DNA of 64,000 bases from Sulfuricystis thermophila (GTDB taxonomy: Bacteria > Pseudomonadota > Gammaproteobacteria > Burkholderiales > Rhodocyclaceae), in the NCBI RefSeq assembly GCF_004323595.1, contig NZ_AP019373.1:2108001-2172000 (forward strand), written 5' to 3'. Of this stretch, positions 7,594-62,486 are shown piece after piece. Both the position numbers and the translations under genes were made by a program. A model generated the notes under the pieces. It was given only the letters and a program-made list of their open reading frames with translations. It did no database searches and had not been told where the DNA came from. The first letter of the stretch is position 1; each line of letters opens with the position of its first letter.

Positions 7594-9933
7594 TCATTTC
7601 GTCAGGCTCAGGTAAAGCATCGGCAACTGCTCAGGCAGCCGCTCGATCCGATCGAGCACCCGCCAGCGGTGGCCGAAGATCTCGCGCACGTAGTCGTCGG
7701 CCTTCGGATCGAGCGAGAGACAAAAGCTCGCAATCCCCTGCGCATCGAGCTCTTCGACGGCCCTCTTTGCATCCGCCTTCAGATGCTCCGGATCGGTGAC
7801 GTCGATGTCGGCCGGTTCGCCGTCGGTCAAGACGAGCAAGATACGTTTGTCGGCCTTGCGGGCGGAAAGATAATGCCCGGCATGCCGAAGCGCCGCGCCC
7901 ATCCGGGTCGAAAAGCGTGCCTGCATCGCAGCGACGCGGGCCTTCACCGTGTCGTCCCAGCGTTCTGAAAAGCCCTTGAGGTGCAGATAGCGCACCTCGT
8001 GGCGCGTGTTGGAATGAAAACCGGCGATCGCCAGCGGGTCGCCGAGGCGGTCGATCGCCCAGGCGAGCAATGACACGGCCTCCTGGCCCAGTTCGAGGAT
8101 GGTTTGTGCCGTGCCGCCAGCGCCGACCTCTCGAGGTGAGTCGGCGCCCGGCGGGACGCTCCGATTTCCGCCAGCGCCGACTTTCTGATTGAGCGATTCG
8201 GAAAGATCGACGAGCAACAGCACGGCGATATTGCGGCCATCGGTTCGATGACTCATGTTGATGCGCGGCTCCGGCTGGCTGCCGGCCTTGAAGTCGATCA
8301 GCGAGCGGATCGCCACGTCGAGATCGAGCTCGCTGCCCTCCTCCTGATAGCGGATGCGCACCTTGTCCTGCGGCTTCAAAAGATCGAGCAAGCGCTTGAG
8401 ATGCTTGGCGAGCGCGGCATGTTTGGCGAGCAAGCGATCGATGTCCGCCGGATTGCCCGACGGATGCAGCGCTTCATAGACACTCACCCAGTCGGGGCGA
8501 TAGGTCTTCGATCCGTAGTCCCATTCCGGATAGTGGCGCGGCGGCAGGCCGACGATTTCGGACTCCTTCGCCAGCCGCCTGTCGGGATCGTCGAAGAATT
8601 CCTCGTCGTCGGAATCCTCGATGTAGCGCCACAGATGCCGGTTGTCGTCGCGGTAATCGACCTCGGTGTCCTCGAAGCGCACCTTCGGCAACTGGTCGCT
8701 CTGGCGGCGTGTCTTCGCGACATAGGCGAGCGCAAGCTCGGCGATTGCGGTAGTGTTCGACGTACCGGAAGCCAGCAGCGCATGAAAGCGCGCCACCGTC
8801 TCATTGATCGCCGCTTCGCGGTAGCCGTGCGCCGGATCGAGGCAGGCGCGCGAGAGCATCGCCAGCCGGTGACGCAGGCAGGAGGTGGTTTCGGGATCAC
8901 AGGCATCCTCCACGGGCTTCGGATGCAGCGCGAGGAAGATGCGCGCCAATCCCGGGTATTCGCGCATCAACAAACAATCGATGCGCGCGTCCTCGAGAAA
9001 TTCGACCGCCAGGCGCTGGAACGGACTCCAGTTGTCGGCGATCTGGGCCTCGCTCCAGCGCCGGTGGCCGACCATGTGAGCCAGCGTCGCCCGATAGCGG
9101 TCGATGCCGGAGACACCGCGAGCGTCGTCATAGACGTCAGGAACGCGCAAACCCAGCTTGTCGAAATAAGGCATCGGCTTGCGCAGCTCATCGAAGGCCG
9201 TCGAATAGGGCACCAGATGGTCGGCCTCATTCCACAGCCCGCGCAAGTAGAGATCGAGCTGGCGTTCGACGTCGGCAAACAAGGTGCCATGTCGCTCCCG
9301 TTGCAAGACCGCGCGGCTGTCGGCCAGCCGCAGCGCGAAATAGTCTTGCTGGCGTTCCGGATGGTGACCGTAGTTGCGGATGCCGTATTCGACCCAGTTC
9401 TTGAGCCCTTTCAGGCTCAACACGTCGAGCAGCCTGGGCGCCTGCTCGAAGAAGTGCGGCAGTCCCGGACTCGGGAAGGTTGCATGATGGCCGTGGATCG
9501 AGCCGGTGGTGCGCATCATCAGCTCGCGTGCGATGGCGAGATAGGTTTCGAGCTGTTCCTGCGATTGCAGCCGCCGTGCCACCGCGGCGAGGGTTTGCAA
9601 AAAAGCACCGATCGCCTTGCCGTTGGGGGATTTTTGCATTGCCCGCACGAAGTCCATCACGGCAGGCAAGGCCGCCATACCGACCGCGCGCACGACCGAC
9701 GGCCACTCTTCGAGGAACACCAGCATCGGCTCCGGCCCGCGGCCGAGCTTGCCCAGGTATCGCGCCGCATCGAGATAGGCATCGAAGTCGGAGCGCTCGA
9801 TGACGAGCAGGGCCTCCGCCATCATTTCCTCGAACACCTCGGCGACTTGCGGAAAGCGCGTGTCGAGGCGCGCCCAGTATTCCCGCATCAGCGGGTGCTG
9901 GTAGCTGGTAAGCGCCGGATCGGCGGACGACAC
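7594..9933 (-). CDS. cbbO: RuBisCO activase component CbbO (VWA-domain protein)
   Basis: With CbbQ it forms the AAA+ activase that removes inhibitory sugar phosphates from RuBisCO. About 779 residues match CbbO. The C-terminal von Willebrand A domain contains the MIDAS motif DLSES (about residue 577) and a downstream LTDGEPAD. I chose the GTG at 9933 because TTTGAGG, overlapping the cbbQ stop, gives a ribosome-binding site; an ATG at 9888 is the alternative. Immediately after the MIDAS motif there is an insertion (about residues 582-606) made of two or three copies of the dispersed repeat (VGAGGNRS...EVGAGGTA). It is co-transcribed with cbbM and cbbQ. Confidence 0.9.
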   Translation of the reverse strand: MSSADPALTSYQHPLMREYWARLDTRFPQVAEVFEEMMAEALLVIERSDFDAYLDAARYLGKLGRGPEPMLVFLEEWPSVVRAVGMAALPAVMDFVRAMQKSPNGKAIGAFLQTLAAVARRLQSQEQLETYLAIARELMMRTTGSIHGHHATFPSPGLPHFFEQAPRLLDVLSLKGLKNWVEYGIRNYGHHPERQQDYFALRLADSRAVLQRERHGTLFADVERQLDLYLRGLWNEADHLVPYSTAFDELRKPMPYFDKLGLRVPDVYDDARGVSGIDRYRATLAHMVGHRRWSEAQIADNWSPFQRLAVEFLEDARIDCLLMREYPGLARIFLALHPKPVEDACDPETTSCLRHRLAMLSRACLDPAHGYREAAINETVARFHALLASGTSNTTAIAELALAYVAKTRRQSDQLPKVRFEDTEVDYRDDNRHLWRYIEDSDDEEFFDDPDRRLAKESEIVGLPPRHYPEWDYGSKTYRPDWVSVYEALHPSGNPADIDRLLAKHAALAKHLKRLLDLLKPQDKVRIRYQEEGSELDLDVAIRSLIDFKAGSQPEPRINMSHRTDGRNIAVLLLVDLSESLNQKVGAGGNRSVPPGADSPREVGAGGTAQTILELGQEAVSLLAWAIDRLGDPLAIAGFHSNTRHEVRYLHLKGFSERWDDTVKARVAAMQARFSTRMGAALRHAGHYLSARKADKRILLVLTDGEPADIDVTDPEHLKADAKRAVEELDAQGIASFCLSLDPKADDYVREIFGHRWRVLDRIERLPEQLPMLYLSLTK
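8106..8184. repeat. Composite cluster of three dispersed-repeat units inside cbbO
   Basis: Two units in the gene's sense orientation (8106-8127 and 8168-8184) flank an inverted, diverged unit (8140-8157). Neighbouring units can pair (CCGCC.GCGCCGAC against GTCGGCGC.CGGCGG). The cluster is translated without a stop. Confidence 0.8.
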
Positions 9934-9940
9934 GGCCACC

Positions 9941-13142: not shown

Positions 13143-13274
13143 TGGATGATAAGATCGAAATGAGACAAAATCGGCACTGAAACCGCGAACAGCGGAGGGG
13201 AGCCCGCCGTGGGCGGGGGCGTAGCGCCCGTGAGCGGTGCCAAGAGGCACCCGTGGCAGCCTGGAGTGGATGAA

Positions 13275-14195
13275 ATGAAGCACGTCACCTTGCGTCAGCT
13301 CAGGGTCTTCGAGTCCGTCGCGCGTCATCTGTCGTTCTCACGCGCGGCGGAAGAACTGCATCTGACTCAACCGGCCGTGTCGATGCAGGTCAAGCAGCTC
13401 GAAGAGCTGGCAGGACTGCCGCTCACCGAAATGATCGGCAAGAAGGTCTATCTCACCCAGGCGGGGGAAGAAGTCGCGCGTCATGCCCGGCGCATCGCCC
13501 AGCAATTGCGTGAGGCCGAAGAAGCGCTCGATGCCTTGAAAGGCGTCAAGGGCGGCCGTCTGTCGATCGGCGTCGTCAGCACTGCGAAGTATTTCGCACC
13601 GCGCCTCTTGGCCGAGTTCCGCCGTCGTCATGACGGCATCGTGCTGGATCTGCGCGTCGGCAATCGCGAGACGGTGGTGCATCAACTCGCCGACAACGAG
13701 ATCGATCTGGCGATCATGGGCCAACCGCCGCAGGAATTCCCCACCGTCGCCGAACCTTTCGCCGATCACCCGCTGGTCATCGTCGCCTCCCCTGATCACC
13801 GGCTGGCACGGCTCGCCCGCGTGACACCGGCAGACCTTGCCGCAGAGACCTTCCTGATCCGCGAGCCCGGCTCCGGAACCCGCGCGACGATGGAACGCTT
13901 CTTTGCCGATGCCGGCATCGCACCGCGCCAGCTCCTCGAACTCGCCGGCAACAACGAAACGATCAAACAGGCCGTGATGGCCGGCCTGGGACTAGCCTTC
14001 ATCTCCGGGCACAGCGTCGCGCTCGAATGCGAGGTCGGCCGGCTGGTCCAGCTGCCGGTCGCCGGCACGCCGGTGATGCGCCGCTGGTTCGTCGTGCAGC
14101 GCGCCGAGAAGGAGCTGCTCCCGCTCGCCGCAGCCTTCCGCGCCTTCCTGCTCACCGAGGCGCCGGCGCTGATGGGCGCGAAAACCGCGCACTGA
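13275..14195 (+). CDS. cbbR: LysR-type transcriptional regulator of the Calvin genes
   Basis: A 306-residue LysR regulator. The N-terminal winged helix (residues about 1-60) reads LRQLRVFESVARHLSFSRAA and AVSMQVKQLE; the C-terminal substrate-binding half includes REPGSGTRATMERFF and a late ISGHSVALE segment. It is divergent from cbbY-cbbM-cbbQ-cbbO, the standard arrangement for CbbR. I chose the ATG at 13275 because translation then begins MKHVTLRQLRVFE, as in CbbR proteins; an in-frame ATG at 13209 only adds residues from GC-rich leader sequence. It presumably binds the three sites listed here. Confidence 0.93.
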   Translation: MKHVTLRQLRVFESVARHLSFSRAAEELHLTQPAVSMQVKQLEELAGLPLTEMIGKKVYLTQAGEEVARHARRIAQQLREAEEALDALKGVKGGRLSIGVVSTAKYFAPRLLAEFRRRHDGIVLDLRVGNRETVVHQLADNEIDLAIMGQPPQEFPTVAEPFADHPLVIVASPDHRLARLARVTPADLAAETFLIREPGSGTRATMERFFADAGIAPRQLLELAGNNETIKQAVMAGLGLAFISGHSVALECEVGRLVQLPVAGTPVMRRWFVVQRAEKELLPLAAAFRAFLLTEAPALMGAKTAH

Positions 14196-14208
14196 AAATC
14201 GGCGCTGG
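14195..14208. repeat. Partial dispersed-repeat core after the cbbR stop
   Basis: AAAATCGGCGCTGG begins on the last base of the cbbR stop codon and matches only the first part of the repeat. This could be coincidental. Confidence 0.35.
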
Positions 14209-14219
14209 ATAGAGGGCAC

Positions 14220-14705
14220 TTATTTTCTTGGCGGCGCCTTCCACAGCGTGACGGTCACGCCCAGTTTGCCGACGAAGGCTTTGGCGTAGTAGCCATCGAG
14301 CCGCAATCGCGGTCCGCCCTCGGGCAGCGCGGAGAGGACGATGTCGGTCAGTTGTGCATCGGTGAGCTGTGTTGTCCCTTCGGCATGCCAGAGTTTGATG
14401 TGGCCGCAGGCGTCGCGGTCGACGAGCAGCGCCCGGTCTTTCACTGCGGCCGGCAGCCGGATCAGCACGCCTTCCGGCAGTTCATAGGCGCGCGCCGGGC
14501 CGAACTCGGTTGGCCGCTCCGGCCCGCCTTCCGGCGTCGCGCTCGCCATCAGCTCGAGGGCCGTGTCGTCGTCGAGCCGGCTTTCCCCTTCGCCATGCCA
14601 GACGACGAAGCCCTGCGGGCCCTGCTGGATCAGCAGGACATTGTCTTCGGCATGGGCAAGCCATGCACAGCAAAGCGCCAGCGCGGCGAGCAGGAGGCGC
14701 TTCAT
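14220..14705 (-). CDS. Periplasmic hypothetical protein
   Basis: I do not recognise this 161-residue protein. It starts with a clear signal peptide (MKRLLLAALALCCAWLAHA) and predicted cleavage after AHA. The mature part contains two similar ~60-residue halves: ESRLDDDTALELMASATPEGGP and TQLTDAQLTDIVLSALPEGGP share the pattern followed by PEGGPR/E, suggesting an internal duplication. One Cys (DRDACGH) remains in the mature part. The start overlaps the upstream thioredoxin-like gene by ATGA, so the two are probably translated together. Exported function is inferred from the signal only. Confidence 0.75.
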   Translation of the reverse strand: MKRLLLAALALCCAWLAHAEDNVLLIQQGPQGFVVWHGEGESRLDDDTALELMASATPEGGPERPTEFGPARAYELPEGVLIRLPAAVKDRALLVDRDACGHIKLWHAEGTTQLTDAQLTDIVLSALPEGGPRLRLDGYYAKAFVGKLGVTVTLWKAPPRK

Positions 14706-15271: not shown

Positions 15272-18200
15272 TCAGTGGTTGGTTTTCGCTGTTTCCAGTG
15301 CCATGCGCAGGGCGATGCCGCGTGCCGAGACTTCTTCCGCCTTCGCCTTTTCCGCGGCGGCGACGGTGAGGCGCGACGCCGGCACACCCGCGGATTCGAG
15401 CAGCACGCGCAGTGTATTGCTGCGTTGCTGGGCGAGCTCCTGCAAGCGGGCATCCGGAATCTCCTCGCGCTCGCGCAGGCGCTCGAACAGCACGGCGTAG
15501 AAATCGGCGCCTTTCAGGCGTCCGATCTCATCCTCGCTCAGGGTCTTCTTCTCGCGCAGCAGACCGGAAAGCCTCGAGATGAACTTGCCGGCGACGCTCT
15601 CCTCGAGCTGGCCGGGATTGGCCTTGCGGAAACCCTCCTTCAGCGCGGCGAGATCGGCGGCGCCGAAACGTTCCTTGTAGAGCGCTTCGAGCGCCTCGCG
15701 GATTTTCGGCTGCTGGGTCGAGATTGGACCGGGATCGCCGGTCTCCGGCACGGACTGGCCGGAGCGCGCCAGCACGGTGCGACGCAGGCGCACATCCTGC
15801 AACGCGGTGCGGTCGGCATCGGCATACACGCCGGTCAGCATGAGCGAGAGCTTCGGCCGTTTGCCCAGCGCCGTCGCCAGTTTCATCGCCTTTTCGCGCT
15901 CGGGGGGCGTAAGTTCCAAAGCGCCCGGCTCGAAAGTGATTTCCTCGAGCTGCTCGCCACTGCCGAACAGCGCGCCGAGCGCACGGAACGGCGCCGTGAC
16001 GATCTTGGTGATCACGTTGGTGATCGCCTTCCAGATCAGCGCGCCATAGCTGAATTGCGGATCGTCGAGACTGCCGGACACCGGCAGGCCCAGATCGATG
16101 CGGCCATCGGCATCCTGCAGCAGGGCGATCGCCAGATCGAGCGGCAGATCCTTCGCCGTCGGGCTCTCGACGCGTTCGCCGAGAGTGAGCCGATCCATGA
16201 TCACCTGGTTGTCGCCGGTGAGCTGACGCTGTTTGATCCTGTATTCGAGGTCGAGCGAGAGCTTGCCGGAATCGATCTTGCGCCCGGCGAACGTCGCCAT
16301 GTAGGGGGTGAGCCGCGTCATTTCGATGTTGCGGAACTGCACGCGCATGTCGAGGCCATTGGTCGGGTTGCCGAGCTCGACCTGGCCCGCGGCGCGCGCC
16401 ATGCCATATTCATCGACGGCGCCTTCCAGCTCGATCTGCCCCACCGCGCCGGGCCGGTTCGAGAGGCCGGCAATGCTGCCCCGCAAGTCATGGATGCGCG
16501 TGGCGAAGGGCAGGATCAGCGATTCGTCGGCGAAATCCATCTCGCCCTTGATGAAGCGCAGCCGGTCGATATTCACCGTGAAAGTCGGCGCTGGCGGAGC
16601 GGCACTCGGTGGGCTCTGCGCCGCGGCGGGCTTCTCTTCGCTTTGCGCTTTCAGCACCCGTTTCACGTTAATGTTCTTTTCCTTGTCGATCAGCAGCTGG
16701 GTATCGAGGCCAGCGAGCGTCAGCTCACCGAGATCGAGCCGGTTCGGTGCAAAGGAAAAGCGCCGCGTGGCCAGGCTCTTCCAGGCCAGCAGCGGCTTGC
16801 TGCTGCCCGGTTCGCTCAGGCGCAGGTCCTTGAGCGCGAACTCGCCTTTCACGTTCGGGCCCTTGTCGTCGTAGAGCGCCCGGCCGAGCAGCGACAGCTT
16901 GCCATCGGCCAAGGTCAACGTGGTTTTCGCGGCGAGGAAAGGCTGGGCGGGTTTGAGCGCCAGGTCAGCGAGCCTGAATTCGACATCGGCGGCGGCAGCC
17001 GCTGGCACGACCCTGCCCTGCGCTTCGAAGCGACCGCCGCTGGCGAAGTCGAATGACAACTTCACCGGCAGCGGCGCGCTCATGTCTTCACTCAACCCTG
17101 TGGTTTCCGCCGCGACATGCTCGAGCACGAGCTCGAACGCGGGCTGGACGCTCGCATCGACGAGGCGCAAACCGAGATCGGCGACCTCGACCTTGCCCAC
17201 CTGATAGCGCCAGAGCGGTGCTGCTTCGCTGACCGAGGCGGCGGCCTTGTCTGCCGGCCGCTTGCCGGCGCCCAGCGCCTTCAGCGCTTCGACGAGTTCG
17301 ATACGCCCTGCCCGGTCACGCTGCAATTCGACGCGTCCGCCTTCGAGCCGAACTCCGCCGACCGATGCCCGGCGCTCGGCCAGCCTGACCTGGATGTCCT
17401 CGGCGTGCAGCGCTGCGAATCGGGGCGACGGGTCGACACCCGGCAGCGCGAGCCGACCGTTGCCGACGCTCACCGCGGCGATGCCGAGCTGCTGGTCGGC
17501 GAGGCGGAAGCGGCCGTCCTCGAGCTCGATCGCTTCGACGCTGGCCACCGGACCGGCGGCATCCTTGAGCGCGATGCGCAGCCCGATCACTTTCGCCTGA
17601 AGATGGTCGACCGCCGCATCGAAGCGCTTGCCGTCATTGCCCGCCACTACCTCGGCGGACAATGCCAGCACCCCTTCCGGCGGCACGGGCAGCGCGTTCT
17701 GCAGATAGGGCGCCAGCTTGGCAAGCTGCAGATCGGCCAGCGAAAGGGTGCCGGCGACACGCAGCGGATCGAGATCGATCTTGCCCGCCAACTCGATCTG
17801 CGCACCAAGCGCCGTGCGTGCCGTGAGCCGGTATTGGCCTTCCTGGTCCGGCAATGTCGACAGCTCCTTCAGCTCCAGATCCAGCGGTTCGATGCGTGTG
17901 CTGAAACCCGCCGCGGTGCGCCGACGGTCGGCATAGTCGAGGCGACCTGCGGTCAGCACGAAGCTGCGAATCGACAGCCGCGGCAGGCCCTTTTTTGCCT
18001 CGGGGCTTTCTTCCTTGCTCTTCAGCGCGTCGAGCAACGGCGTCCAGTTGAGCCTGCCTTCGGGCAGTTCGACGAGCGTGGCCGCCGGTGCGTCGAGACG
18101 GATCGCGTCGAACACCAGCGCGCGCTGCGTGAGGCTGGCCGCCGAAATATCGACCAGCAGGCCGTCGAAGGCCAGCAGCGGTTGTCCACTCGGGTCGACG

Positions 18201-18449: not shown

Positions 18450-19181
18450 ATGATACCGCGCTTCCACTGCCCCGCTCCGCTGGCGCCCGGTGCGCTCGTC
18501 GAGCTGCCCGAGACGGTTGGCCATCATGCCCTGCGCGTGCTGCGCATGAAAAGCGGCGATCATCTCATCCTCTTCGATGGCAACGGCGGCGAGTGGCGCG
18601 CGACGCTCAAACTCGGCGCTGGCGGCACGGCACAAGCGCTGTTGGGCGAATTCGCCGCGATCGAACGCGAATCCCCCTTGCAGGTCACACTGGCGCAAGC
18701 ATTGCCTGCCGGCGACAAGATGGACTGGATCGTCGAGAAATGCGTCGAGCTCGGTGTCGCCGCGATCCAGCCGCTCGCCGCGAAGCGCAGCGTGATGCGG
18801 CTCTCTCCGGAACGCATGGCGCGCCGTGTTGCGCACTGGAATGCGATCGCCCGCACCGCCTGCGAACAATGTGGCCGCAACCGCGTGCCAGCGGTCATGC
18901 CGGTCCTTGACCTGCCTCAATATCTGGGGACAGCGCAGGCGCAAAATGCCTGTCGTCTGCTGCTCGAACCACAAGGCGAGGACACGCTCCGCTCGCTGGC
19001 CAGGCCAACGGCGCCGGTCGTGGTGATGGTGGGGCCTGAAGGCGGCTGGGAGGATGCGGAGCGTTCGGCTGCACACGCCGCTGGTTTCACCGTGCTGCGG
19101 CTCGGGCCACGGGTATTGCGCACCGAGACCGCCGGTATGGCGCTGTTGGCGGCGCTGCAGGCGCTGGGGGGCGACTTTTAA
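18450..19181 (+). CDS. rsmE: 16S rRNA (uracil-1498-N3)-methyltransferase
   Basis: SPOUT-class methyltransferase modifying U1498 of 16S rRNA with S-adenosylmethionine. The protein is 243 residues, normal for RsmE. The N-terminal PUA-like part includes HHALRVLRMKSGD. The trefoil-knot motifs are GPEGGWEDAE and LRLGPRVLRTETA at the C-terminus. I chose the ATG at 18450 (MIPRFHCPA) because RsmE proteins begin like this; an in-frame ATG at 18432 is less likely. A dispersed-repeat copy encodes LGAGGTAQ at residues 54-62, between strands of the N-terminal domain. Confidence 0.95.
   Translation: MIPRFHCPAPLAPGALVELPETVGHHALRVLRMKSGDHLILFDGNGGEWRATLKLGAGGTAQALLGEFAAIERESPLQVTLAQALPAGDKMDWIVEKCVELGVAAIQPLAAKRSVMRLSPERMARRVAHWNAIARTACEQCGRNRVPAVMPVLDLPQYLGTAQAQNACRLLLEPQGEDTLRSLARPTAPVVVMVGPEGGWEDAERSAAHAAGFTVLRLGPRVLRTETAGMALLAALQALGGDF
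18609..18634 (+). repeat. Dispersed mini-repeat copy in rsmE
   Basis: AAACTCGGCGCTGGCGGCAC and then GGCACA, in sense orientation, translated KLGAGGTA. Confidence 0.85.
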
Positions 19182-22609: not shown

Positions 22610-22630
22610 ACGAAGTCTTACGAAGAAAAA

Positions 22631-25141: not shown

Positions 25142-25173
25142 CAGGACGGCGGGAAGTTTTCGTGTCTTGTCTT

Positions 25174-25197
25174 GCCGTCCCGCCAGCGCCGACTTTC
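25174..25197 (-). repeat. Dispersed mini-repeat copy at the 3' end of the PIN toxin gene
   Basis: GCCGTCCCGCCAGCGCCGAC then TTTC on the plus strand, that is GTCGGCGCTGGCGGGACGGC on the minus strand. The toxin's TGA (25196-25198) overlaps its edge. Confidence 0.85.
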
Positions 25198-27372: not shown

Positions 27373-28748
27373 AGCAGCACCCTGCGGAAGTCGCTGAGCA
27401 GTTGGGCCAGATACGCATTGAAGCGCGTCGCCAGCGCGCCATCGATGACGCGATGATCGGCCGAGAGCGACAAGGGCAGGATCAAGCGCGGCAGGAAGGT
27501 TTCGTCATTCCAGACCGGTTTCATCGCCGCCTTGGAGACGCCGAGGATCGCCACCTCGGGCGCATTGACGATCGGCGAGAAGGCCGTGCCGCCGATGCCG
27601 CCGACGCTGGAGATCGTGAATGTCGCCCCTTGCATCTCGGTCGGGGAAAGCTTGCCTTCGCGCGCCTTTTTCGCGAGCTCGGCGGTTTCCTGCGCGATCT
27701 CGATGACGCCCTTCTTGTCGGCGTCCTTGAGCACCGGCACGACCAGGCCGTTCGGGGTATCGGCGGCGAAGCCGATGTGCCAGTAATGCTTGTAGATGAG
27801 GTTCTCGCCGTCGAGCGAGCTGTTGAGCTCGGGATATTTCTTCAGCGCCGCGACGCAAGCCTTGATCAGGAAGGCGAGCATCGTGATCTTGATGCCGGTT
27901 TTCTCGTTTTCCTTGTTGAGCTGAACGCGCAGGGCTTCCAGCTCGGTGATGTCGGCCTCCTCGTGATAGGTCACCGCCGGGATCATCACCCAGTTGCGGG
28001 CGAGGTTCGGCCCGGAAATCTTCTTGATGCGCGACAGCGGCTTGGCCTCGATCGGCCCGAACTTGGCGAAATCGACCTGCGGCCAGGGCGGCAGGTTCAA
28101 GCCCGGCCCGCTGAAAGTCGGCGCTGGCGGGACGGCACCCCCGCTCACCGCCGCCTTGACGAAGTTTTTGACATCCTCATGGGTGATGCGCCCCTTCGGG
28201 CCGCTCCCCTTGACCTGCGCGATGTCGACGCCGAGCTCGCGCGCGAAGCGGCGCACCGAGGGACTCGCATGCGACTTGACGCCATCGAGTTCGGCGACGA
28301 TCTCGGCAGGCGAGGGCATGCGCACGGGGGGCGGCAGGATGGCGATGGTCGGTGTCGGCGGCGTGGGTCCGGTCGACGCAGGGGCGGCAACGGCCGGCGC
28401 AGGCGTTTCGACCGCTCGTGGCGCCATCGGCGTTTCAGGCACGGCAGCGGGTGCGGAAATGGGAGCCGGCGGCGCTTGCGGAGCCGGCGACGCCTGCGGA
28501 GCTGGCGCGGCTGCTTCGCTGGCCGGTTCGAGCACGACGATCGTCGTGCCTTCCGAGACCTTGTCGCCGAGCTTGACCTTGACTTCCTTGACGATGCCCG
28601 CGGCAGGACTGGGCACGTCCATCGTCGCCTTGTCCGATTCGAGCGTGATCAGCGCATCCTCGGCCTTGACTGCATCGCCCGGTTTGACATGCACTTCGAT
28701 GACCGGCACATCATGGAAATCGCCGATGTCGGGAACTTTGATTTCCAT
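27369..28748 (-). CDS. aceF: Pyruvate dehydrogenase E2, dihydrolipoyl acetyltransferase
   Basis: Core acetyltransferase of the pyruvate dehydrogenase complex, 459 residues. It has one lipoyl domain (residues 1-75, lipoyl Lys40 in LESDKATMD), an Ala/Pro linker, a peripheral-subunit-binding domain (SPSVRRFARELGVDIAQVKG) and a catalytic domain ending in SADHRVIDGALA. The E. coli enzyme has three lipoyl domains; one is common elsewhere. A dispersed-repeat copy encodes [10 protein letters not shown] in the second linker (residues about 203-212). The ATG at 28748 lies five bases past the aceE stop. Confidence 0.96.
   Translation of the reverse strand: MEIKVPDIGDFHDVPVIEVHVKPGDAVKAEDALITLESDKATMDVPSPAAGIVKEVKVKLGDKVSEGTTIVVLEPASEAAAPAPQASPAPQAPPAPISAPAAVPETPMAPRAVETPAPAVAAPASTGPTPPTPTIAILPPPVRMPSPAEIVAELDGVKSHASPSVRRFARELGVDIAQVKGSGPKGRITHEDVKNFVKAAVSGGAVPPAPTFSGPGLNLPPWPQVDFAKFGPIEAKPLSRIKKISGPNLARNWVMIPAVTYHEEADITELEALRVQLNKENEKTGIKITMLAFLIKACVAALKKYPELNSSLDGENLIYKHYWHIGFAADTPNGLVVPVLKDADKKGVIEIAQETAELAKKAREGKLSPTEMQGATFTISSVGGIGGTAFSPIVNAPEVAILGVSKAAMKPVWNDETFLPRLILPLSLSADHRVIDGALATRFNAYLAQLLSDFRRVLL
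28114..28140 (+). repeat. Dispersed mini-repeat copy in aceF
   Basis: AAAGTCGGCGCTGGCGGGAC and then GGCACCC. It is antisense to aceF and translated GAVPPAPTF within the linker. Confidence 0.9.
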
Positions 28749-33552: not shown

Positions 33553-34560
33553 ATGTCCTTCCAGCCCATCAAGTTCTACCAGACCGGCACCTTCACCGTC
33601 GGCAACCGCCTGCTGCCGCCGGAACAGCGTAGCGTGCAAGCGCAGGTCAAGCGCTACAACTCGCTCAACTCTGGCCACCGCGCCTGCCAGGGCTGCGGCG
33701 AGGCGCTCGGCGCGCGTTATGCGATCGACGCGGCGATGGAAGCGACCAACGGCCGCGTGATCTGCGCCAACGCCACCGGCTGCCTGGAAGTGTTCTCGAC
33801 GCCTTATCCGGAAACGAGCTGGCAGGTGCCGTGGCTCCACTCGCTGTTCGGCAACACCGCGGCGGTGGCGACCGGGATCGCCGCGGCGCTCAAGGTGAAG
33901 ATGCAGAAAGGCGAACGGCGCCACATACGTGTCGTCGCCCAGGGCGGTGACGGCGGCACCACCGACATCGGCTTTGGTTGTCTGTCCGGCATGTTCGAGC
34001 GCAATGACGACGTGCTCTACATCTGCTATGACAACAACGGCTACATGAACACCGGCATCCAGCGCTCTTCCGCCACGCCGCCAGCCGCGCGCACCGCGAC
34101 CACGCCGGCCGTCGGTCCGGAGCCGGGCAACCCGTTCGGTCAGGGCAAGTTCGTGCCGGCGATCGCGCTGGCGCACGAGATCCCCTATGTGGCCACCGCG
34201 ACGGTCGCCGATCTGCGCGATCTCGAAGCCAAGGTGCGCCGCGCGATGGAATTTCACGGCGCGCGTTATCTGCACATCCTCGTGCCCTGCCCGCTCGGCT
34301 GGGGCACGCAGCCCCATGAAACCATCAAGATGGCGCGGCTCGCCAAGGAGACCGGCCTGTTTCCGGTCTTCGAGGCCGAATACGGCGAACAAAAGTCGGC
34401 GCTGGCGATACGGCACCCACGGCCCGTCGAGGACTATCTGAAGCCGCAGAAACGCTTCGCCCATCTGTTCGCGCCCAAGCTGCGCACCGATGTGATCGCG
34501 AAACTACAAGCGCTCGCCGACCGCAACATCCGGAAATACAGGCTGCTCGAAGGAATGTGA
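33553..34560 (+). CDS. 2-oxoacid:acceptor oxidoreductase, beta (thiamine diphosphate) subunit
   Basis: A 335-residue thiamine diphosphate-binding subunit. HRACQGCGEALGARYA supplies iron-sulfur cysteines, CANATGCLEVFSTPYP is the usual next block, and the cofactor motif is GGDGGTTDIGFGCLSGMFERND with CYDNNGYMNTGIQRS. Sense-strand insertion of a dispersed repeat at residues about 280-288 gives EQKSALAIRHPRP, in a different frame from the other in-gene copies. It follows alpha by 13 bp and precedes the NAD-linked subunit by one base. Confidence 0.92.
   Translation: MSFQPIKFYQTGTFTVGNRLLPPEQRSVQAQVKRYNSLNSGHRACQGCGEALGARYAIDAAMEATNGRVICANATGCLEVFSTPYPETSWQVPWLHSLFGNTAAVATGIAAALKVKMQKGERRHIRVVAQGGDGGTTDIGFGCLSGMFERNDDVLYICYDNNGYMNTGIQRSSATPPAARTATTPAVGPEPGNPFGQGKFVPAIALAHEIPYVATATVADLRDLEAKVRRAMEFHGARYLHILVPCPLGWGTQPHETIKMARLAKETGLFPVFEAEYGEQKSALAIRHPRPVEDYLKPQKRFAHLFAPKLRTDVIAKLQALADRNIRKYRLLEGM
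34392..34417 (+). repeat. Dispersed mini-repeat copy in the beta subunit gene
   Basis: AAAGTCGGCGCTGGCGATAC and GGCACC, sense orientation, read KSALAIRH, a frame distinct from VGAGGTAP. Confidence 0.85.
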
Positions 34561-37064: not shown

Positions 37065-38248
37065 TAAAGCTCCGCCAGCCGACGGGCATGGCTTTGCCGG
37101 GCCTCGGCAGCGACCCCGATCGCCCGTGAAAAGCCCTCGGCGAGCCGCGCGAGGCCGACCACGCCCGGCATTTCCGGCATCTCCCAGGTGGCCAGATAGG
37201 CGGCGAGTTTGTTGCTGCGGCCGGCCAGCGATGGTGACAGAAAACTCACTCGCGGCAGGGCAAACGCGCTGGCCACGATATGGCCATGGAGACTCGTGCC
37301 AACGAATCCCCGGCTCGCCGCGATCAGCGCCGTGATCTGCCAGACATCGAGCGCGGCGAAGATGCGCCATGGGGCCGTTGCAAACCGCGCAGCGCAGCGC
37401 CGATACGCTTCGAGGTCATCATGCCAGGGGGCGGTGCCGGCACGGAAAAAGACGATGCCCCAGCCGGTTTCCGCCGCGATGGCATCAAAGCCACGGGCCA
37501 GCGAGTCCAGCGTCGCGTCATCGCCGCATTCGGCGGCGAATTGCACGGCGACGAAGCCGGCAGGAAAGCACGAGCGGATCTCGGCCACCTCGCCTCGCAT
37601 CGTCTCCTGCGCGATACCTGCGCCGAAGCGCGCGGCGATGACCGCCACCGGATCGGGCGCGAGTGCGGCCGCAATACCGTCCGCGGCCAGTGCGGCCTGG
37701 GTGGCCCGATCGCGCACACAAAGGGCATCAGCCCCTGCCAGCTTCGCCAGCACCTCGCGCCGCAACGACGCATCGGCATTGATGAAATCCGCCCCGCCGA
37801 CGGCATTGAACACGACGCGCCGTGCCGCCGGAAAAAGCTCGCGGCCGATCACATAAGGCGCTGCGGCAGTGAAGCCGAAGCGCTCGCTTGCATAGGCACG
37901 CGCGCCCACAGGGTCGGCGTCGAAACGCGCGATCAGCCCGGGAGCTTCCTCCGGTTCGGCCAGCATCACCGCCGCCTGCCAGGCGGTGGTGGTCAGGATC
38001 TCGCCGCCGATGTGGATGATCTCGAGCGGCACGCCGCGATACCTCGCTGCCAGATCGGCGATCGCTTCGATGCGAAAGCCGCCATAGGGCGTCAGGTCGC
38101 GTGCCACCAGACCCGCCGGGATGAGCGTTCTGCCCTCACACAGCACCGCCGCGACGTGGCCGAACAGCAGATCGCCGAAGTTGTGGCGATCGTGGGCGCC
38201 GAAGAGCAGCGTCGGTGCCGTCCCGCCAGCGCCGACTTCGTCACCCAT
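37004..38248 (-). CDS. Polysaccharide pyruvyl transferase family protein
   Basis: A 414-residue protein of the polysaccharide pyruvyl transferase family (CsaB/WcaK type), which adds ketal pyruvate to sugars of cell-envelope polymers. HDRHNFGDLLFGHVAAVL is the start of the domain, HIGGEILTTTAW and the C-terminal FVGTSLHGHIVASAFALPRV are typical. The predicted N-terminus [16 protein letters not shown] comes from a dispersed-repeat copy just inside the ATG, so the native start may have been altered. The last residues overlap the Mut7-C remnant on the other strand, and the true C-terminus may also be changed. No other polysaccharide genes are nearby. Confidence 0.8.
   Translation of the reverse strand: MGDEVGAGGTAPTLLFGAHDRHNFGDLLFGHVAAVLCEGRTLIPAGLVARDLTPYGGFRIEAIADLAARYRGVPLEIIHIGGEILTTTAWQAAVMLAEPEEAPGLIARFDADPVGARAYASERFGFTAAAPYVIGRELFPAARRVVFNAVGGADFINADASLRREVLAKLAGADALCVRDRATQAALAADGIAAALAPDPVAVIAARFGAGIAQETMRGEVAEIRSCFPAGFVAVQFAAECGDDATLDSLARGFDAIAAETGWGIVFFRAGTAPWHDDLEAYRRCAARFATAPWRIFAALDVWQITALIAASRGFVGTSLHGHIVASAFALPRVSFLSPSLAGRSNKLAAYLATWEMPEMPGVVGLARLAEGFSRAIGVAAEARQSHARRLAELYQRAAADSIACIRSQCEPGQ
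38215..38238 (-). repeat. Dispersed mini-repeat copy at the 5' end of the pyruvyl transferase gene
   Basis: On the minus strand GTCGGCGCTGGCGGGACGGC and then ACC, translated VGAGGTAP at residues 5-12, directly after the start codon region. Confidence 0.9.
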
Positions 38249-41657: not shown

Positions 41658-42071
41658 TCAGACATCGACCACACACTGCGCGAGCCATTGCCCATCGGGA
41701 AGGCGCTCGACTTTCAGTTCGCAGAAACTCGCCCCCTTGATCTCGGCGGCCGGCTGGTGACGCGCGACATCGATGGCTTCGCCCCAGGCGGTCGCCACGA
41801 GATGATGATCTTCGATGCTCACCGCGAAGCGCGAGAACAAGAGCTTCCGTGTCGCCATCTCGTAGATCAGCGCATTGAGCCAGTCGAGCAGCAGCAGTTC
41901 GTCATCGGGCGCGGCGCACTCGATCCGTGCCGTCTCGGAACCGCCGACTTTCGTGGGATCGGTGATCACCGCGGTGAGCGCCATGGCCGCGCCGGCAAAG
42001 GCCTCGGCCAGCGTCGCGCCCAGCCCGCGCACGCCGACGTCGGCATCGTGTGCGAATGTCTCCCATTTCAT
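41658..42071 (-). CDS. Archease (RtcB activator)
   Basis: A 137-residue archease, which speeds RtcB guanylylation and turnover. MKWETFAHDADVGVRGLGAT shows the conserved HxADVG metal-binding start; LLLDWLNALIYEMATRKLLF is the typical next block, and a KGASFCELKV segment and C-terminal VVDV complete the fold. Its ATG overlaps the polX stop. It is cotranscribed with rtcB, the common bacterial pairing. Confidence 0.93.
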   Translation of the reverse strand: MKWETFAHDADVGVRGLGATLAEAFAGAAMALTAVITDPTKVGGSETARIECAAPDDELLLLDWLNALIYEMATRKLLFSRFAVSIEDHHLVATAWGEAIDVARHQPAAEIKGASFCELKVERLPDGQWLAQCVVDV

Positions 42072-50120: not shown

Positions 50121-51319
50121 TCGAATTCAGGCTGCCATCGCTCGGTGCCGACATGGACGAGGGCACCCTGCTCGAATGGAAGGTGAAGCCGGGCGACAGG
50201 GTCGAAAAGGGCCAGGTGATCGCGATCGTCGATACCGCGAAGGCCGCGATCGACGTCGAATGCTGGCAGGAAGGCACCGTGCATCGCCTGATCGCCGAGC
50301 CGGGGCAGAAGATGCCGGTCGGCACGGTGATGGCACTGCTGCTCGAACCCGGCGAGACAGTGCCGGCCGAAGCGGCGACGGCAACCCCGCACACCGGCAG
50401 CAACGAAAGCCGAGAAGTCTCCTCGGGTAGCGGCGCACTGCGCGAAGTCGGCGCTGGTGGAACGGCACCCCCGCCCGCTCCAGAGGCGGGTGAGCGGCGC
50501 CGCATCTCGCCGGCGGCGAGGAAACGCGCCGCCGAGCTGGGCGTCGCTGTCGAAAAGCTCATCGGCAGCGGGCCGCAGGGCGCAGTGACGCTCGAAGACG
50601 TCGAGAAAGCGGCGGCCCGACCCGCGCCCGCCGCGCCGCCGGGCGATCGTTTCCTGGCGATGCGCCAGACCATCGCCGCGGCGATGAGCCGTTCCAAGCG
50701 CGAGATTCCGCATTACTACGTCAGCGAGGACATTCCGCTCGCCCGCATGCTGGCCTGGCTGCAGGAAACGAACGCGCAGCGGCCGATGACCGAGCGCCTC
50801 TTGCCGGCCGCGGTGCTGCTCAAAGCCGTGGCACGCGCCTTGGCAAACTATCCCGAGCTCAACGGCCATTACCGCGATGGCGCCTTCCAGCCGGCGCAAG
50901 CGGTGCATCTGGGCGTGGCGATCTCGTTGCGCGCGGGCGGGCTGATCGCCCCGGCGATCCTCGATGCCGGCGCGAAGCCGCTCACAAAGCTGATGCAGGA
51001 ACTCGCCGATCTCGTCCGGCGCACCCGTGCCGGCTCGCTGAAAAGCGCCGAGCTTTCCGCGGCGACGATCACCGTGACCAATCTCGGCGACCAGGGCAGT
51101 CATGGCGTGTTCGGCGTCATCACCCCGCCGCAGGTGGCGCTGGTCGGATTCGGGCGCATCGCCGAACGGCCGTGGGCGGAGAATGGTGGGCTGAAAGCGC
51201 TGCCGGTGGTCACCGCCAGCCTTTCGGCCGACCACCGCGTCTCGGACGGCCATCGCGGCGCGCTGTTCCTGCGCGAACTTTCCGACCTGCTGCAACAACC
51301 GGAGGAACTCGCGCGATGA
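50117..51319 (+). CDS. 2-oxoacid dehydrogenase E2, dihydrolipoyl acyltransferase
   Basis: A 400-residue E2: lipoyl domain (residues 1-78; [20 protein letters not shown], lipoyl Lys in [11 protein letters not shown]), a linker holding a dispersed-repeat copy ([16 protein letters not shown], residues about 109-120), a peripheral-subunit-binding domain ([20 protein letters not shown]) and a catalytic domain ending [20 protein letters not shown]. No E3 gene is in this cluster; lpdA at 26-27 kb is the likely partner. It overlaps the acyl carrier protein gene by four bases. Confidence 0.93.
50444..50470 (+). repeat. Dispersed mini-repeat copy in the second E2 gene
   Basis: GAAGTCGGCGCTGGTGGAAC then GGCACCC, sense orientation, translated VGAGGTAP in the flexible linker. 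Confidence 0.9.
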
Positions 51320-56743: not shown

Positions 56744-57898
56744 ATGACCGCGATTCTTCCTCCCGCCACGCTCGGCATGCTCGGCGGCGGCCAGCTCGGC
56801 CGCTTCTTCGTGATCGCCGCGCACGAAATGGGCTACCGCGTCGTCGTGCTCGATCCCGACCCGGCTAGCCCCGCGGGCAAGATCGCCGACCTCCACATCG
56901 CCGCGGCCTACGACGACGCGGACGCGCTGGAGCGCCTGGCCGGCCAGTGTGCAGCGGTGACCACCGAGTTCGAGAACGTGCCAGCCGACACCCTTGCCTA
57001 CCTCGCCAAATTCGTCACCGTGCGGCCATCGGCCGAGGCCGTGGCCATCTGCCAGAACCGCAGCGCGGAAAAAGCCTTTCTCAAACGGCATGGCTTCCCG
57101 CATGCGCCTTACGCCGACATCACGAGCGAGGATGATCTCAGGAATGCCAACGCCGGTCTCTTCCCAGGCATCCTGAAAGTGTCCCGTTTCGGCTACGACG
57201 GCAAGGGCCAGGCGCGCGTGGATTCGCGCGAGGAAGCCATCGCCGCCTGGGCGAGCTTCCGCCGCGAGCCGTGCGTGCTCGAGCAGCAACTGAAGCTCGA
57301 CTATGAAGTTTCGGTGGTGCTCGCGCGCGACGAGGCGGGGCGCGTCAAGTGTTTCCCGACCGTCGAAAACCGCCACAGAAAGGGCATCCTCGACGTCTCG
57401 ATCGCGCCGGCGCGCACCTCGGGCTGCCTGGCCGGCAACGCAGAAGAGATCGCCGAGGGCATCGCGCAAAAGATGGACTACGTCGGCACGCTCGGCGTCG
57501 AATTCTTCGTCGTCCATGGCCAGCTCTATGTCAACGAAATGGCGCCACGCCCGCACAATTCGGGCCACTACACGCTCGATGCCTGTGTGACCAACCAGTT
57601 CGAGCAACAGCTGCGCGCGCTCTGCGGCCTGCCGCTCGCCGATCCGCGCCAGCACTCGGCCGCCGTCATGGTCAATCTGCTCGGCGACATCTGGTACCGT
57701 GAGGACCCGCATCACGCCAAGGAGCCGGACTGGTCGCAGCTGCTCGCCATCCCGAATCTCAAACTGCATCTCTACGGCAAACACCATCCGCGCCCGGGGC
57801 GCAAGATGGGGCATTTCACCGTGATCGGCAATGACGCAGCAGTCGTGCAAAAGTCGGCGCTGGCGGCGCGGCACGCGATGGGGATCGGCGATGACTGA
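56744..57898 (+). CDS. purK: N5-carboxyaminoimidazole ribonucleotide synthase
   Basis: ATP-grasp ligase forming N5-CAIR from AIR, bicarbonate and ATP. 384 residues. LGMLGGGQLGRFFVIAAHEM is the N-terminal domain; KVSRFGYDGKGQARV is the ATP-grasp glycine-rich loop and NEMAPRPHNSGHYTLDAC closes the active site. The final residues (AVVQKSALAARHAMGIGDD) come from a dispersed-repeat copy, so the C-terminal tail is not native to the family. The gene overlaps the following Sua5-type gene by eight bases. Confidence 0.96.
   Translation: MTAILPPATLGMLGGGQLGRFFVIAAHEMGYRVVVLDPDPASPAGKIADLHIAAAYDDADALERLAGQCAAVTTEFENVPADTLAYLAKFVTVRPSAEAVAICQNRSAEKAFLKRHGFPHAPYADITSEDDLRNANAGLFPGILKVSRFGYDGKGQARVDSREEAIAAWASFRREPCVLEQQLKLDYEVSVVLARDEAGRVKCFPTVENRHRKGILDVSIAPARTSGCLAGNAEEIAEGIAQKMDYVGTLGVEFFVVHGQLYVNEMAPRPHNSGHYTLDACVTNQFEQQLRALCGLPLADPRQHSAAVMVNLLGDIWYREDPHHAKEPDWSQLLAIPNLKLHLYGKHHPRPGRKMGHFTVIGNDAAVVQKSALAARHAMGIGDD
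57849..57874 (+). repeat. Dispersed mini-repeat copy forming the purK tail
   Basis: AAAAGTCGGCGCTGGCGGCG then CGGCAC, sense orientation, read KSALAARH, the same frame as in the beta subunit gene at 34392. Confidence 0.88.
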
Positions 57899-59496: not shown

Positions 59497-60422
59497 ATCT
59501 GAGTCTCGAACTGGCGCTGGAGTGGCACAGCGCCTTGGCCGTTCATCGGGATCGGCATTGGTTCGCCGGTGTCGACCCGCTGGAAACCGACCTACCCGCC
59601 GGTTTCGCTACGGCAATCGCGAAACTCGGCGCTGGCGAGACGGCATGCTGGCCCATCGCCACCCCCAGCGGCACACTCGAAGCACGCGTGCTTGCCCGTG
59701 ATGATGGGCCGGCGGATGGTTATCTCGCCGTGCTCGCCGCGCTCAAGCAGGGCATCGGCCGGCAGGCAGAGCTCGCGCCCCTCGAAGCGCTCACCGAACC
59801 CTACCCGCGGCCGCACGAGGACGATGCCGCCTTCTACGCCCCGCCGCGCCTCGTCGATCACCTCGATGCCACGGCGCTGAATGAATGGCGCACCTTCACC
59901 GGCCGTTTCGTGCGCGACGGCATGGCCGTGCTCGATCTGATGGCCAGTCACGACTCGCATCTGCCGGCTGAAGTCCGGCCGGCGCGCGTCGTCGGCCTGG
60001 GCATGAACGCCGTCGAACTCGGACACAACCCGAGGCTCACGGAAAGCATCGTCCATGACCTCAACGCCAAGCCGACGCTTCCCTTCGCCGCCCGGGAATT
60101 CGACCTCGTACTCTGCGCGCTGTCGATCGAATATCTCGCCCGCCCGGAAGCCGTGCTGCGCGAAGCGCGTCGCGTGCTCAAGCCCGGAGGCCGCTGCGTG
60201 GTGAGTTTCTCGGAGCGCTGGTTTCCGCCCAAGGCCGTCGAGCCCTGGCCGAAGCTGCATCCCTTCGCACGCGTCGCCTGGGTGCTGCGCCATCTGCAGC
60301 GCGCCGGCTTCACTGCTTTGCACACCGAATCGCTGCGCGGTCTACCGCGCCCGGCCGATGACAAATACATCGCGCAGACGAAATTTTCCGATCCGCTCTA
60401 TGCGGTGTGGGGCACGGCCTGA
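59493..60422 (+). CDS. Class I SAM-dependent methyltransferase-like protein
   Basis: About 309 residues with a Rossmann methyltransferase core in the second half: VLDLMASHDSHLPAEVRPAR, then VVGLGMNAVELGHNPRLTES and EFDLVLCALSIEYLARPEAV and LREARRVLKPGGRCVVSFSE, as in type 11 domains. SAM-binding is weakly typical (DLMAS in place of DLGCG). No ATG, GTG or good Shine-Dalgarno sequence opens the frame: candidates are CTG at 59493 or TTG at 59535, so the start is uncertain. A dispersed-repeat copy encodes KLGAGETAC near residue 45. The stop codon meets that of the convergent gene. Confidence 0.72.
   Translation: MNLSLELALEWHSALAVHRDRHWFAGVDPLETDLPAGFATAIAKLGAGETACWPIATPSGTLEARVLARDDGPADGYLAVLAALKQGIGRQAELAPLEALTEPYPRPHEDDAAFYAPPRLVDHLDATALNEWRTFTGRFVRDGMAVLDLMASHDSHLPAEVRPARVVGLGMNAVELGHNPRLTESIVHDLNAKPTLPFAAREFDLVLCALSIEYLARPEAVLREARRVLKPGGRCVVSFSERWFPPKAVEPWPKLHPFARVAWVLRHLQRAGFTALHTESLRGLPRPADDKYIAQTKFSDPLYAVWGTA
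59622..59646 (+). repeat. Dispersed mini-repeat copy in the methyltransferase gene
   Basis: AAACTCGGCGCTGGCGAGAC and GGCAT, sense orientation, translated LGAGETA; slightly diverged. Confidence 0.75.
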
Positions 60423-60431
60423 TCAGGCCGT
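60414..60431. other. 18-bp perfect palindrome joining two convergent stop codons
   Basis: ACGGCCTGATCAGGCCGT is its own complement. The methyltransferase TGA (60420-60422) and the cbbO-like TGA (60425-60423) abut, and both genes end in the same codons. It could act as a small bidirectional end or simply be chance. Confidence 0.7.
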
Positions 60432-62486
60432 CAGCTTGCGGTAGATGTCGGCGACCTTGAGCGGCAGTTTCTTCACGTCGTCGAGCACCGTGTAGGCGGC
60501 CGGACCCATCATGTGCTTCAGATAGTCGGCCCCCTGGCGGTCGATGGTGATGCAGTAACTCCGGATGCCCTGCTCGCGCGCTTCCTGCAGCGCGCGGCGT
60601 GTGTCTTCGATGCCATAGGTGCCGCGATATTCGTCGCCGAAATCGTCGGGGCGGCCATCCGAGAGCGTCACCAGGAGCTTGTGGCGTGCCGGCTGTGCGG
60701 CGAGCAGGCGCGTCAGATGGCGGATCGCCACGCCCATACGCGTGTAATCCTTGGCTTCGATGCCGTCGATGCGCGCGCGCACTGACTCGTCGTAACGATC
60801 GGCGAAATCCTTGATGCGATAGATGTCGCAGCGCGTGCGCGTCCAGCCCGAGAAGCCGTAGATCGCATAGGCATCGCCGAGCTTCTCCAGCGCCTCGCAG
60901 AGCATCACCAGCGCTTCGCGCTCGGCGTCATTGACCCAGCCCTTGGTCGAGCCGCTCATGTCGATCATGAACAGCGCCGCCAGACTGCGCTCGTTCCTGA
61001 CGCGCCGGGAAAACAGGCGTGTGGAAGGTTCGGCGCCGCTCTTCCGGTCATTGACCGCCTCGATCAGCGCATCGAGGTCGATCTCCTCGCCCTCCACCTG
61101 ACGGCCGAGCATGCGATCTTCCCCGCGCACCGCTTCGAAACGGCGCTTCAGCTGCGCAATGAAATGCGCATAACGCTGGCGCGTCTCGCGCACGAAGGCG
61201 CCATCACCGGGTTTGACGTCGCTGACATAGACATGGCACCAGCCGCGCCGGTAGGCGTTGCGATGGTAATCCCACTCGTCATAGCGATGATCGGGCTCAC
61301 GGCTATTCACCATTTCCCGCGCGCCCTCTTTCGGCCGATCGTCGGGCGTCCACGGTGCCTCCCCGGCGGGTGAGAGCGCCTCGGGCGGCACCTGGCCGAG
61401 ATCCTGCAGGAGCGACTGCACCGCCGTGCGCGCCGCCTCCGGCAACTGCACGGCCTGGCCATCGATGCGCACTTCCAGCTCACCCGTCGCGGTGTTCACC
61501 TCGGCCGTGAATTCGCGGCCATCCGCCTCGCGCTTGCCCGCCGCACCCCTCAAGGCGCCGAGCGCTTTTTTCAGTGTCTCGGTGTCGCGCGCGATGCGCT
61601 CACTGCGCACGCGCCAGGCGATCCCCGGTTCCAGCCGGGCAATGAAAGTCGGCGCTGGCGGAACGGCACCCGCCGCCATCAAACGGGATAACCAGTCGAG
61701 CGAGACGCGCACGTCGGCGTTTTCCCCCTGCAGATCGGCAAGCGCCGGATGCAAGGCTTCCGGCCAGGGCTCGCGCAACTCGGCGAGCAACGCCCCCAGA
61801 CCCGGCAGATCGCGTGCGACGCAGGCTTCCAGCCGCACCGCTTCGAGATGCGCCAGCCAGGCGAGCGCCTGCTCGCGCTCAGGCCACTGTGATAGCGCCG
61901 CCTCCAGATCGACGTCGAAGGTGCCATAGCGCGTCTGCGCCCACAGCTGTACCGCGAGTCCCTGATAGACGCGGCGGTTGTCCTCGGCATTGGCAAAGCG
62001 GGCAATGCGTTCGGGCAGGAAGATCGTCTCGGTGTCGGTCCACGGATAGCTGCCGCTCTTGAGCGCCAGCGGCCGGCCGGAGAGCCCCAGCACGAACCGC
62101 GACAAGCGGGGTTCGACCTCGGCGAACTTCGCCGGCAGCCGGCCTTCGCGGGCAGCGAGGAAAGCCTCGACGTCGCGCAGAGTCTCGATCGCCGGACGCA
62201 ACCCCTGCTTGTCGAACACGTCGAGCCCTGCGATCACCCAGGCCTCGAAATCCTTTTCGCTGAAGCGTCCGAGCATTTCGGGCGCCAAGGTGGCGATCAG
62301 ATAGGCGAGCTCGGTATTGGTCTTCGCCGCGCCGCGCGCGACGCGCAGCACGAACTCCTGCTGCTGGCGCGGCAGCGCTTCGAGCATCGCCGCGAGCCGT
62401 TCGATCGAGCGGTGCGACGGCGAAGCGAACAGAAAGGCGTCGAGCAGTTCCTCGAGCTCGTGGGCGAACAGCTTTCTTGCGCTCAA
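60423..62486 (-). CDS. Second CbbO/NorD-like VWA protein
   Basis: A 687-residue VWA-domain partner of a MoxR-type ATPase. The C-terminal VWA domain has MIDAS motif [11 protein letters not shown] (DxSxS intact) and [12 protein letters not shown]. The first half is helical. It is shorter than the cbbO at 7594-9933. In the middle a dispersed-repeat copy encodes [10 protein letters not shown] (residues about 272-281). It is coupled to the upstream ATPase gene by an ATGA overlap. Proteins of this type serve RuBisCO (CbbO) or nitric oxide reductase (NorD); neither a RuBisCO nor norCB gene is adjacent, so the client is unknown. Confidence 0.82.
61644..61671 (+). repeat. Dispersed mini-repeat copy in the second cbbO-like gene
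   Basis: GAAAGTCGGCGCTGGCGGAA then CGGCACCC, antisense to the gene, read GAVPPAPTF. Confidence 0.9.

Follow-up and report, generated by a model that had tools for sequence, protein, structure and literature searches.

How does the same short sequence come to lie, in several reading frames, inside a succession of unrelated genes? The question is raised by a 64-kb stretch (contig NZ_AP019373.1, positions 2,108,001 to 2,172,000; hereafter the window) from the genome of Sulfuricystis thermophila, a bacterium of the Rhodocyclaceae, whose members are encountered chiefly in environmental samples. An initial annotation of the window had described a short dispersed repeat, with a dozen-odd copies, that invades genes of different function. 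Here we analyze this motif in the window, in the complete genome and in related genomes, and we conclude that it is probably a DNA uptake sequence (DUS), a self tag for natural transformation resembling the neisserial DUS and the uptake signal sequences (USS) of the Pasteurellaceae. The uptake role, the receptor and the force that would spread the motif are what we infer from sequence comparison; the motif appears to work like a DUS and is a candidate member of that class.

A logo built from 42 sites defines the consensus as AAAGTCGGCGCTGGCGGnACGGCACC, which starts with AAA and is longer than the core first described. The window contains 10 matches to the 23-bp core with no more than 3 mismatches, while 100 dinucleotide shuffles of it contain on average 0.02 matches and none attains 10; 14 window sites lie within 6 mismatches of the 26-bp consensus. 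The initial annotation had also proposed searching the complete genome with 3 mismatches allowed. This search recovers 401 copies in the single 2,737,315-bp contig, 198 forward and 203 reverse, and the reversed pattern finds 0 over the same length. At wider tolerance, 464 kb of this genome (the window plus 400 kb) hold 103 sites in mismatch classes 0-6, with 0 for the reversed control, and 480 kb of the comparison genome G002 hold 107, with 1; these classes have one control only, the complement of the pattern being the same word set as its reverse. From mismatch class 7 on, the motif is indistinguishable from background in the 464-kb sample. Scaling up from 103 sites per 464 kb would give a whole-genome total of about 600 copies. 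Outside cellular genomes, an exact 22-bp pattern matches 22 viral-contig stretches.

By inspection, the consensus contains no stop codon in any of the six frames, in agreement with the earlier statement that copies within genes never stop the frame. Three quarters of the sites in the 464 kb (75 of 103) fall in called genes, and their counts over the six frames are 27, 20, 12, 10, 5 and 1 (P = 6e-7 against equal use). A predominance of coding sites in a few favored frames is what recurrent peptides, or the codon bias of a GC-rich genome, would produce; but a single DNA sequence serves here in each of the six frames and is present between genes too, and the reversed pattern yields nothing. Chance and codon bias are refuted by the shuffle and reversed-pattern controls, and we give this explanation practically no weight. 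The sites show constraint at the level of DNA: 53 of the 75 genic sites are spanned by an alignment with G002, and in the 48 that are ungapped and usable third-codon divergence between the two genomes is 14.2% within sites and 24.9% in their flanks (P = 6e-6), with no significant difference between site and flank at first and second codon positions.

The placement of the sites is also ordered. With arrays merged, 86 sites are spaced more evenly than random (coefficient of variation 0.71 versus 0.98, P = 0.0006). In a 360-kb portion with 79 sites, 78 lie in the 328 kb shared with a fetched 400-kb stretch of G002, and the unshared 31.8 kb contain 1 site where about 7 are expected (P = 0.009), part of that DNA possibly sitting elsewhere in G002; the motif is thus concentrated in shared DNA and rare in unshared DNA, as expected of a core-genome tag. 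The 28 sites outside called genes lie between convergent (12), tandem (13) and divergent (3) genes, and convergent gaps make up 6.6 of the 42.2 kb of intergenic DNA; our gene calls are crude, with the E2 gene at 28114, at the least, overlooked, and the numbers of sites outside genes are therefore maxima. Uptake sequences are expected to form terminator-like inverted pairs near gene ends; the observations here that bear on this are these 12 sites between convergent genes and the hairpin units described below. The regular spacing, the conservation and the low count in unshared DNA would likewise fit the main alternative, in which the motif is bound by an abundant intracellular protein that organizes, segregates or repairs the chromosome, as nucleoid, KOPS-like or Chi-like sites do, and to which we return with the evidence on lineages.

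The initial annotation spoke of invasion, and insertion predicts empty sites in orthologues. We took 380 sites in fetched loci (up to 4 mismatches, 250-bp flanks) and aligned their flanks to other genomes, obtaining 187 orthologous pairs, from which 8 near-identical ones were dropped; in the 179 kept, a site was scored as present at up to 6 mismatches, and some genomes are present twice, at least one comparison (G010 with G002) being double-counted. The site is kept in 140 pairs and replaced at the same length in 9, these representing four loci and including sequences that are still partly motif-like (8-11 mismatches). The remaining 30 pairs have gaps at the site: five of them show a net length change of 51-102 bp involving a 54-bp unit discussed below, and others show minor shifts, variable linkers or divergent intergenic DNA. 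A clean motif-length loss, of 29 bp, occurs in a single one of these gapped pairs, out of 179 in all. Insertions are detectable by this method: where G002 has a MITE-like (miniature inverted-repeat transposable element) block of about 146 bp next to a motif copy, S. thermophila shows a clean empty site.

The beta subunit of a thiamine pyrophosphate (TPP) oxidoreductase, whose gene carries a copy at 34392..34417 (+ strand; TPP enzyme by Pfam), aligns without gaps across the site in S. thermophila and the 11 other sequences of at least 73% identity that a scan of the family yielded: carriers read KSALAIRH where motif-free sequences read VTGVLKIR or similar, and G026, which uses a GGCG dialect, reads KSALAIRR, with H changed to R. 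Five paralogues at about 35% identity have gaps near the site. In rsmE (copy at 18609..18634, +, read KLGAGGTA; Pfam RsmE) the protein differs in length around the site by no more than one residue in the 30 sequences compared, a match to this protein being found in 40 of 41 genomes. The description of a dispersed repeat translated in several frames within unrelated genes stands, and its entry by insertion of the 26-mer does not: an insertion element of this length is rejected by the empty-site test and by the equal-length TPP orthologues. Like uptake sequences, the motif seems to arise by base replacement or recombination, and its position is kept between species.

A second, associated repeat behaves differently. 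One or more 54-bp units precede some motif sites, the unit type being AAAGTCGGCGCTGGCGGAAATGAAGACGTCCCGCCGGGCGCCGACTCnyCTCG, the second half of which carries the motif in inverted form. The unit is an imperfect palindrome that lies between and inside genes and in tandem, with 8 copies in the 464 kb of S. thermophila and 16 in the 480 kb of G002. Folded alone, one unit gives a strong hairpin (-28.6 kcal/mol; 3 of 200 shuffles do as well, z = -2.6), and unit and motif folded together are unexceptional (z = -1.0). Directly before the motif copy at 8105, a unit at 8131..8184 (-) adds 18 codons to a VWA-domain gene and is missing at the orthologous place in G002, while the second E2 gene (copy at 50444..50469, +, read EVGAGGTA) has one additional unit in G002. 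Within these genes the unit behaves like duplicated or inserted DNA. The unit beside the copy at 8105, like the AAA start, the dialects and the genome-wide extent of the motif, is an addition to the initial annotation.

The gain and loss of these units inside genes is one ground for regarding the motif itself as a small mobile or palindromic element that inserts into genes, akin to Rickettsia palindromic elements, repetitive extragenic palindromic (REP) elements or MITEs. The genomes do host such elements, since in G002, beside the orthologue of C1:1162023 of S. thermophila, an approximately 146-bp MITE-like element with inverted ends is cleanly inserted next to a motif site, and Y1/RAYT (REP-associated tyrosine transposase) proteins occur in 5 of 19 genomes of the genus (G003, G008, G010, G011 and G013). 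Rickettsia palindromic elements, like the present motif, occur in genes of different kinds and are translated there in several frames; they are, however, much longer insertions than the 26-mer, and the 26-mer, unlike them, fails the empty-site test. REP elements resemble the 54-bp unit, not the 26-mer, which by inspection is not a palindrome, and no Y1_Tnp/RAYT match is found in S. thermophila, G002 or G004, although these genomes carry 401, 231 and 492 copies; mobilization by RAYT is accordingly rejected for the three. Together with the single clean empty site and the TPP subunit replaced at equal length, this makes a mobile origin of the motif distinctly improbable.

The consensus, in addition, changes with the lineage. 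S. thermophila and G002 share AAAGTCGGCGCTGGCGGnACGGCAC, and G017, of the same genus, has AAACTCGGCGCTGGCGGGGCGGCG; the consensi are AAAAGTCGGTGCTGGCGGGACGGCG in G026, AAAGTCAGTCCCGGCGGGACGGCG in G028, AAAAGTCGACGCTGG.GA.ACGGCG in G086 and AAAGTCAGCCGTGGCGGCACGCCG in G107, each having been built from 2 to 119 sites by a scan that had been fitted to the hits it produced. Lineage dialects are a property of DNA uptake sequences, and one of the present shifts lies inside the genus. In stretches not picked for hits, sites occur at 0.22 per kb in S. thermophila, 0.25 in G002, 0.25 in G026, 0.24 in G107, 0.21 in G019 and 0.14 in G064; the values of 0.25-0.26 per kb for G028, G086 and G017 are biased upward, these stretches (for G017 in part) having been picked where hits were listed. 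Reversed-matrix controls give 0 to 2 hits per genome. In G002, four otherwise normal sites carry the sub-variant TCGGCGGCTTCGG in place of TCGGCGCTGGCGG, possibly a nascent dialect.

Because the consensus changes in a coordinated way by lineage, the dialects would point to a single recognizing factor and to a mechanism by which the sequence this factor prefers is spread. Here the intracellular-protein explanation meets a difficulty, as dialect shifts, one of them inside a genus, would presumably require hundreds of compensating changes in the absence of such a mechanism. No strong strand bias shows in the 400 kb examined (42 plus and 47 minus), and 24-26 bp is very long for a Chi or KOPS site. 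In favor of a chromosomal role it must be said that uptake and receptor are themselves putative, and we consider it unlikely, though the most serious competitor of an uptake sequence.

An exact-match scan of named genomes returned at least 120 stretches; among the matches listed, most are metagenome-assembled genomes (MAGs) of Rhodocyclaceae or Rhodocyclales, with Sulfurisoma, including exact copies in the cultured carrier Sulfurisoma sediminicola BSN1, Sulfuritalea, one Propionivibrio, one Accumulibacter and MAGs labelled only as beta-, gamma- or Proteobacteria. When 61 whole genomes were scanned, carriers comprised 18 of the 19 genomes of the window's genus, with 34 to 492 copies each, plus two further genomes of its family, G019 and G026; G006, the last of the 19, has zero copies, and the remaining 40 genomes have 0 to 4. 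With a degenerate pattern, which finds 627 copies in G019, 15 of 150 family genomes reach at least 100 copies (genera g1, g2, g9, g62, g70 and g88). A looser pattern finds at least 90 copies in 14 of 96 family genomes, adding genera g11, g47, g69 and g90, and at most 19 in the other 82; patterns of either kind would overlook more distant dialects. Across the other families of the order, 194 genomes contain at most 15 copies each, here too with a pattern that more distant dialects would escape. In one of these other families, G198 has 4 of its 6 copies within 5 kb (contig C3:26361-30944), in what looks like carrier-derived DNA. A k-mer search for another dialect found none that was convincing in motif-free G006 (78 kb) or in G036 (60 kb).

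The remaining copies in the window illustrate how varied the hosts are, Pfam having been used to check the host genes. The genes described as cbbO and cbbO-like are both VWA-domain genes: the first (7594-10032) carries a copy with 3 mismatches at 8105..8130 (-), read EVGAGGTA, and the second (60423-62486) an exact antisense copy at 61645..61670 (+), read GAVPPAPT, the antisense peptide originally given. The same peptide is read from an exact antisense copy at 28114..28139 (+) in the aceF-like E2 gene (27369-29207). Pfam also agrees with the names given to the DUF748 gene (15272-18412; antisense copy at 16581..16606, +, read SAAPPAPT) and the polysaccharide pyruvyl transferase gene (38214..38239, -, read EVGAGGTA), and likewise for RsmE, both E2 acyltransferases, the TPP enzyme and PurK. 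The copy near the 3' end of purK (57850..57875, +, read KSALAARH) lies also in the 5' part of a Sua5/YrdC open reading frame (ORF; 57831-58856). The methyltransferase host is an ORF with that domain (59235-60422) in which a copy with 4 mismatches at 59622..59647 (+) is read (K)LGAGETA; our gene caller picked the opposite strand there. As stated before, a copy abuts the vapC stop: it occupies 25171..25196 (-) and begins at the stop codon of a 133-residue PIN-domain (VapC-type) ORF at 25196-25597 (-). Three further copies are degenerate, namely one with 6 mismatches at 7550..7575 (-), called intergenic, one with 6 mismatches at 14195..14220 (+), beginning at the last base of a LysR-type gene (13209-14195), and one with 5 mismatches at 41926..41951 (-), read KVGGSETA in a predicted gene (41658-42071).

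Elsewhere in S. thermophila, the leader of a prepilin-like ORF (L370, around 1784) is encoded by the motif, in antisense frame, at the start of the protein, and an IspH-like ORF (L367, 5054-5983, minus) carries the motif where its G006 homologue has a shorter, different stretch. Other repeats occur as well. At 22486-23040 in the window, 122-nt duplications, nearly identical and situated at a gene's 3' end, enclose an intervening block whose 90-bp arm is 86% complementary to 36200-36289, and similar sequence is found in MITE-like insertions of G002. The dispersed repeat AACCCAGATTGTCC has 9 copies in the 464 kb of S. thermophila and 17 in the 480 kb of G002, and TTGTGAAAAA has 7 and 0 in the same samples; a CRISPR-like array is present in the G002 sample as well, its repeat lying around TAGCTCCCTCTCTCACCCCGGATAGCT, the core of which is matched 15 times.

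If the motif is an uptake sequence, a receptor for DNA on the cell surface, probably one of the minor type IV pilins, would bind it on free DNA and so favor the uptake of DNA that stems from the same species or from relatives, and homologous recombination of the incoming DNA would spread and maintain it in the core genome. Copies would originate by base replacement and gene conversion wherever proteins tolerate the position and the frame, and shifts in receptor specificity, followed by the set of copies, would give rise to lineage dialects. Inverted partner copies may form hairpins, and the palindromic 54-bp unit, derived from the same sequence, has multiplied in tandem at certain loci. Among the genes searched, S. 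thermophila has the competence and type IV pilus components this mechanism would call for: a single ComEC, a single DprA and, at E values up to 0.1, 17 prepilin-type N-methylation matches, of which 15 pass the cut-off. A prepilin cluster with a GspH/FimT-like pilin adjoins ispH, and we read the genes of this cluster as ispH, pilE, fimT, pilV and pilW.

Several observations weigh against an uptake sequence. ComEC is found in 38 and DprA in 40 of the 41 genomes searched, motif-free G006 included, and the FimT-like (GspH) pilin is present in both S. thermophila and G006, the two being 37% identical; machinery alone thus fails to explain which genomes are carriers. A comparison of the prepilins of S. 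thermophila, G002 and G006 for a receptor missing from G006 singled out none, and G019, with its 627 copies and 99% completeness, gives a DprA match that stays below the cut-off. Under the patterns tried, the motif is missing from most genera of the family, and one orthologous pair does show the clean 29-bp indel. The information in the motif, judged from the logo and the lineage consensi, extends over 24-26 bp, and known uptake motifs have 9-12 nt according to PMC12616744, a length that is customary in the two families concerned without being their defining trait. Its roughly 400-800 copies are several-fold fewer than the approximately 1,900 or more of the Neisseriaceae, where the 10-mer DUS has about 1,900 copies in Neisseria according to PMC3630211.

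Other features place it close to systems already described. Neisserial DUS are, according to PMC3630211 and PMC2397512, abundant core-genome sequences with inverted pairs and dialects that some members of the family do not have; the Rhodocyclaceae motif is likewise a repeated core-genome sequence, genic and apparently in inverted pairs, with lineage dialects and relatives without it. It is the sharing of these traits, namely abundance, origin by replacement or recombination, core restriction, apparent inverted pairs and dialects, that leads us to read it as a Rhodocyclaceae uptake sequence. It differs from the neisserial DUS in its length (24-26 versus 10-12 bp), its unrelated consensus and its tandem 54-bp palindromic units, and in that its function is approached here from sequence alone. 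With the Pasteurellaceae USS it shares enrichment in the genome and the existence of more than one sequence type; PMC12616744 gives two USS types, Hin and Apl, with the 9-nt consensus AAGTGCGGT or ACAAGCGGT, unrelated to the present one and gammaproteobacterial. The literature searched, in which subscription journals were thinly covered, neither prints GTCGGCGCTGGCGG nor reports a DNA uptake sequence in the Rhodocyclaceae. Genic copies of the Pasteurellaceae USS lie in preferred frames, as do those of the Rhodocyclaceae motif.

Uptake self-tags have been described as a feature known from just two other families of bacteria. On balance we lean, with less assurance than for the uptake role itself, towards a third and separately evolved system of self-DNA recognition in the Rhodocyclaceae, with a 24-26-bp code in at least five dialects and about ten genera, which would be read by a minor pilin, would rewrite proteins at hundreds of sites and would have spawned tandem palindromic units. 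If this is true, a third lineage, whose motif has about double the length, would imply that self-tagging of DNA evolves repeatedly, and it would provide a new comparative system for the joint change of receptor and motif, including a dialect shift within a genus. It would also explain odd residues in the proteins of these bacteria, and natural transformation in the Rhodocyclaceae becomes a direct and testable prediction.

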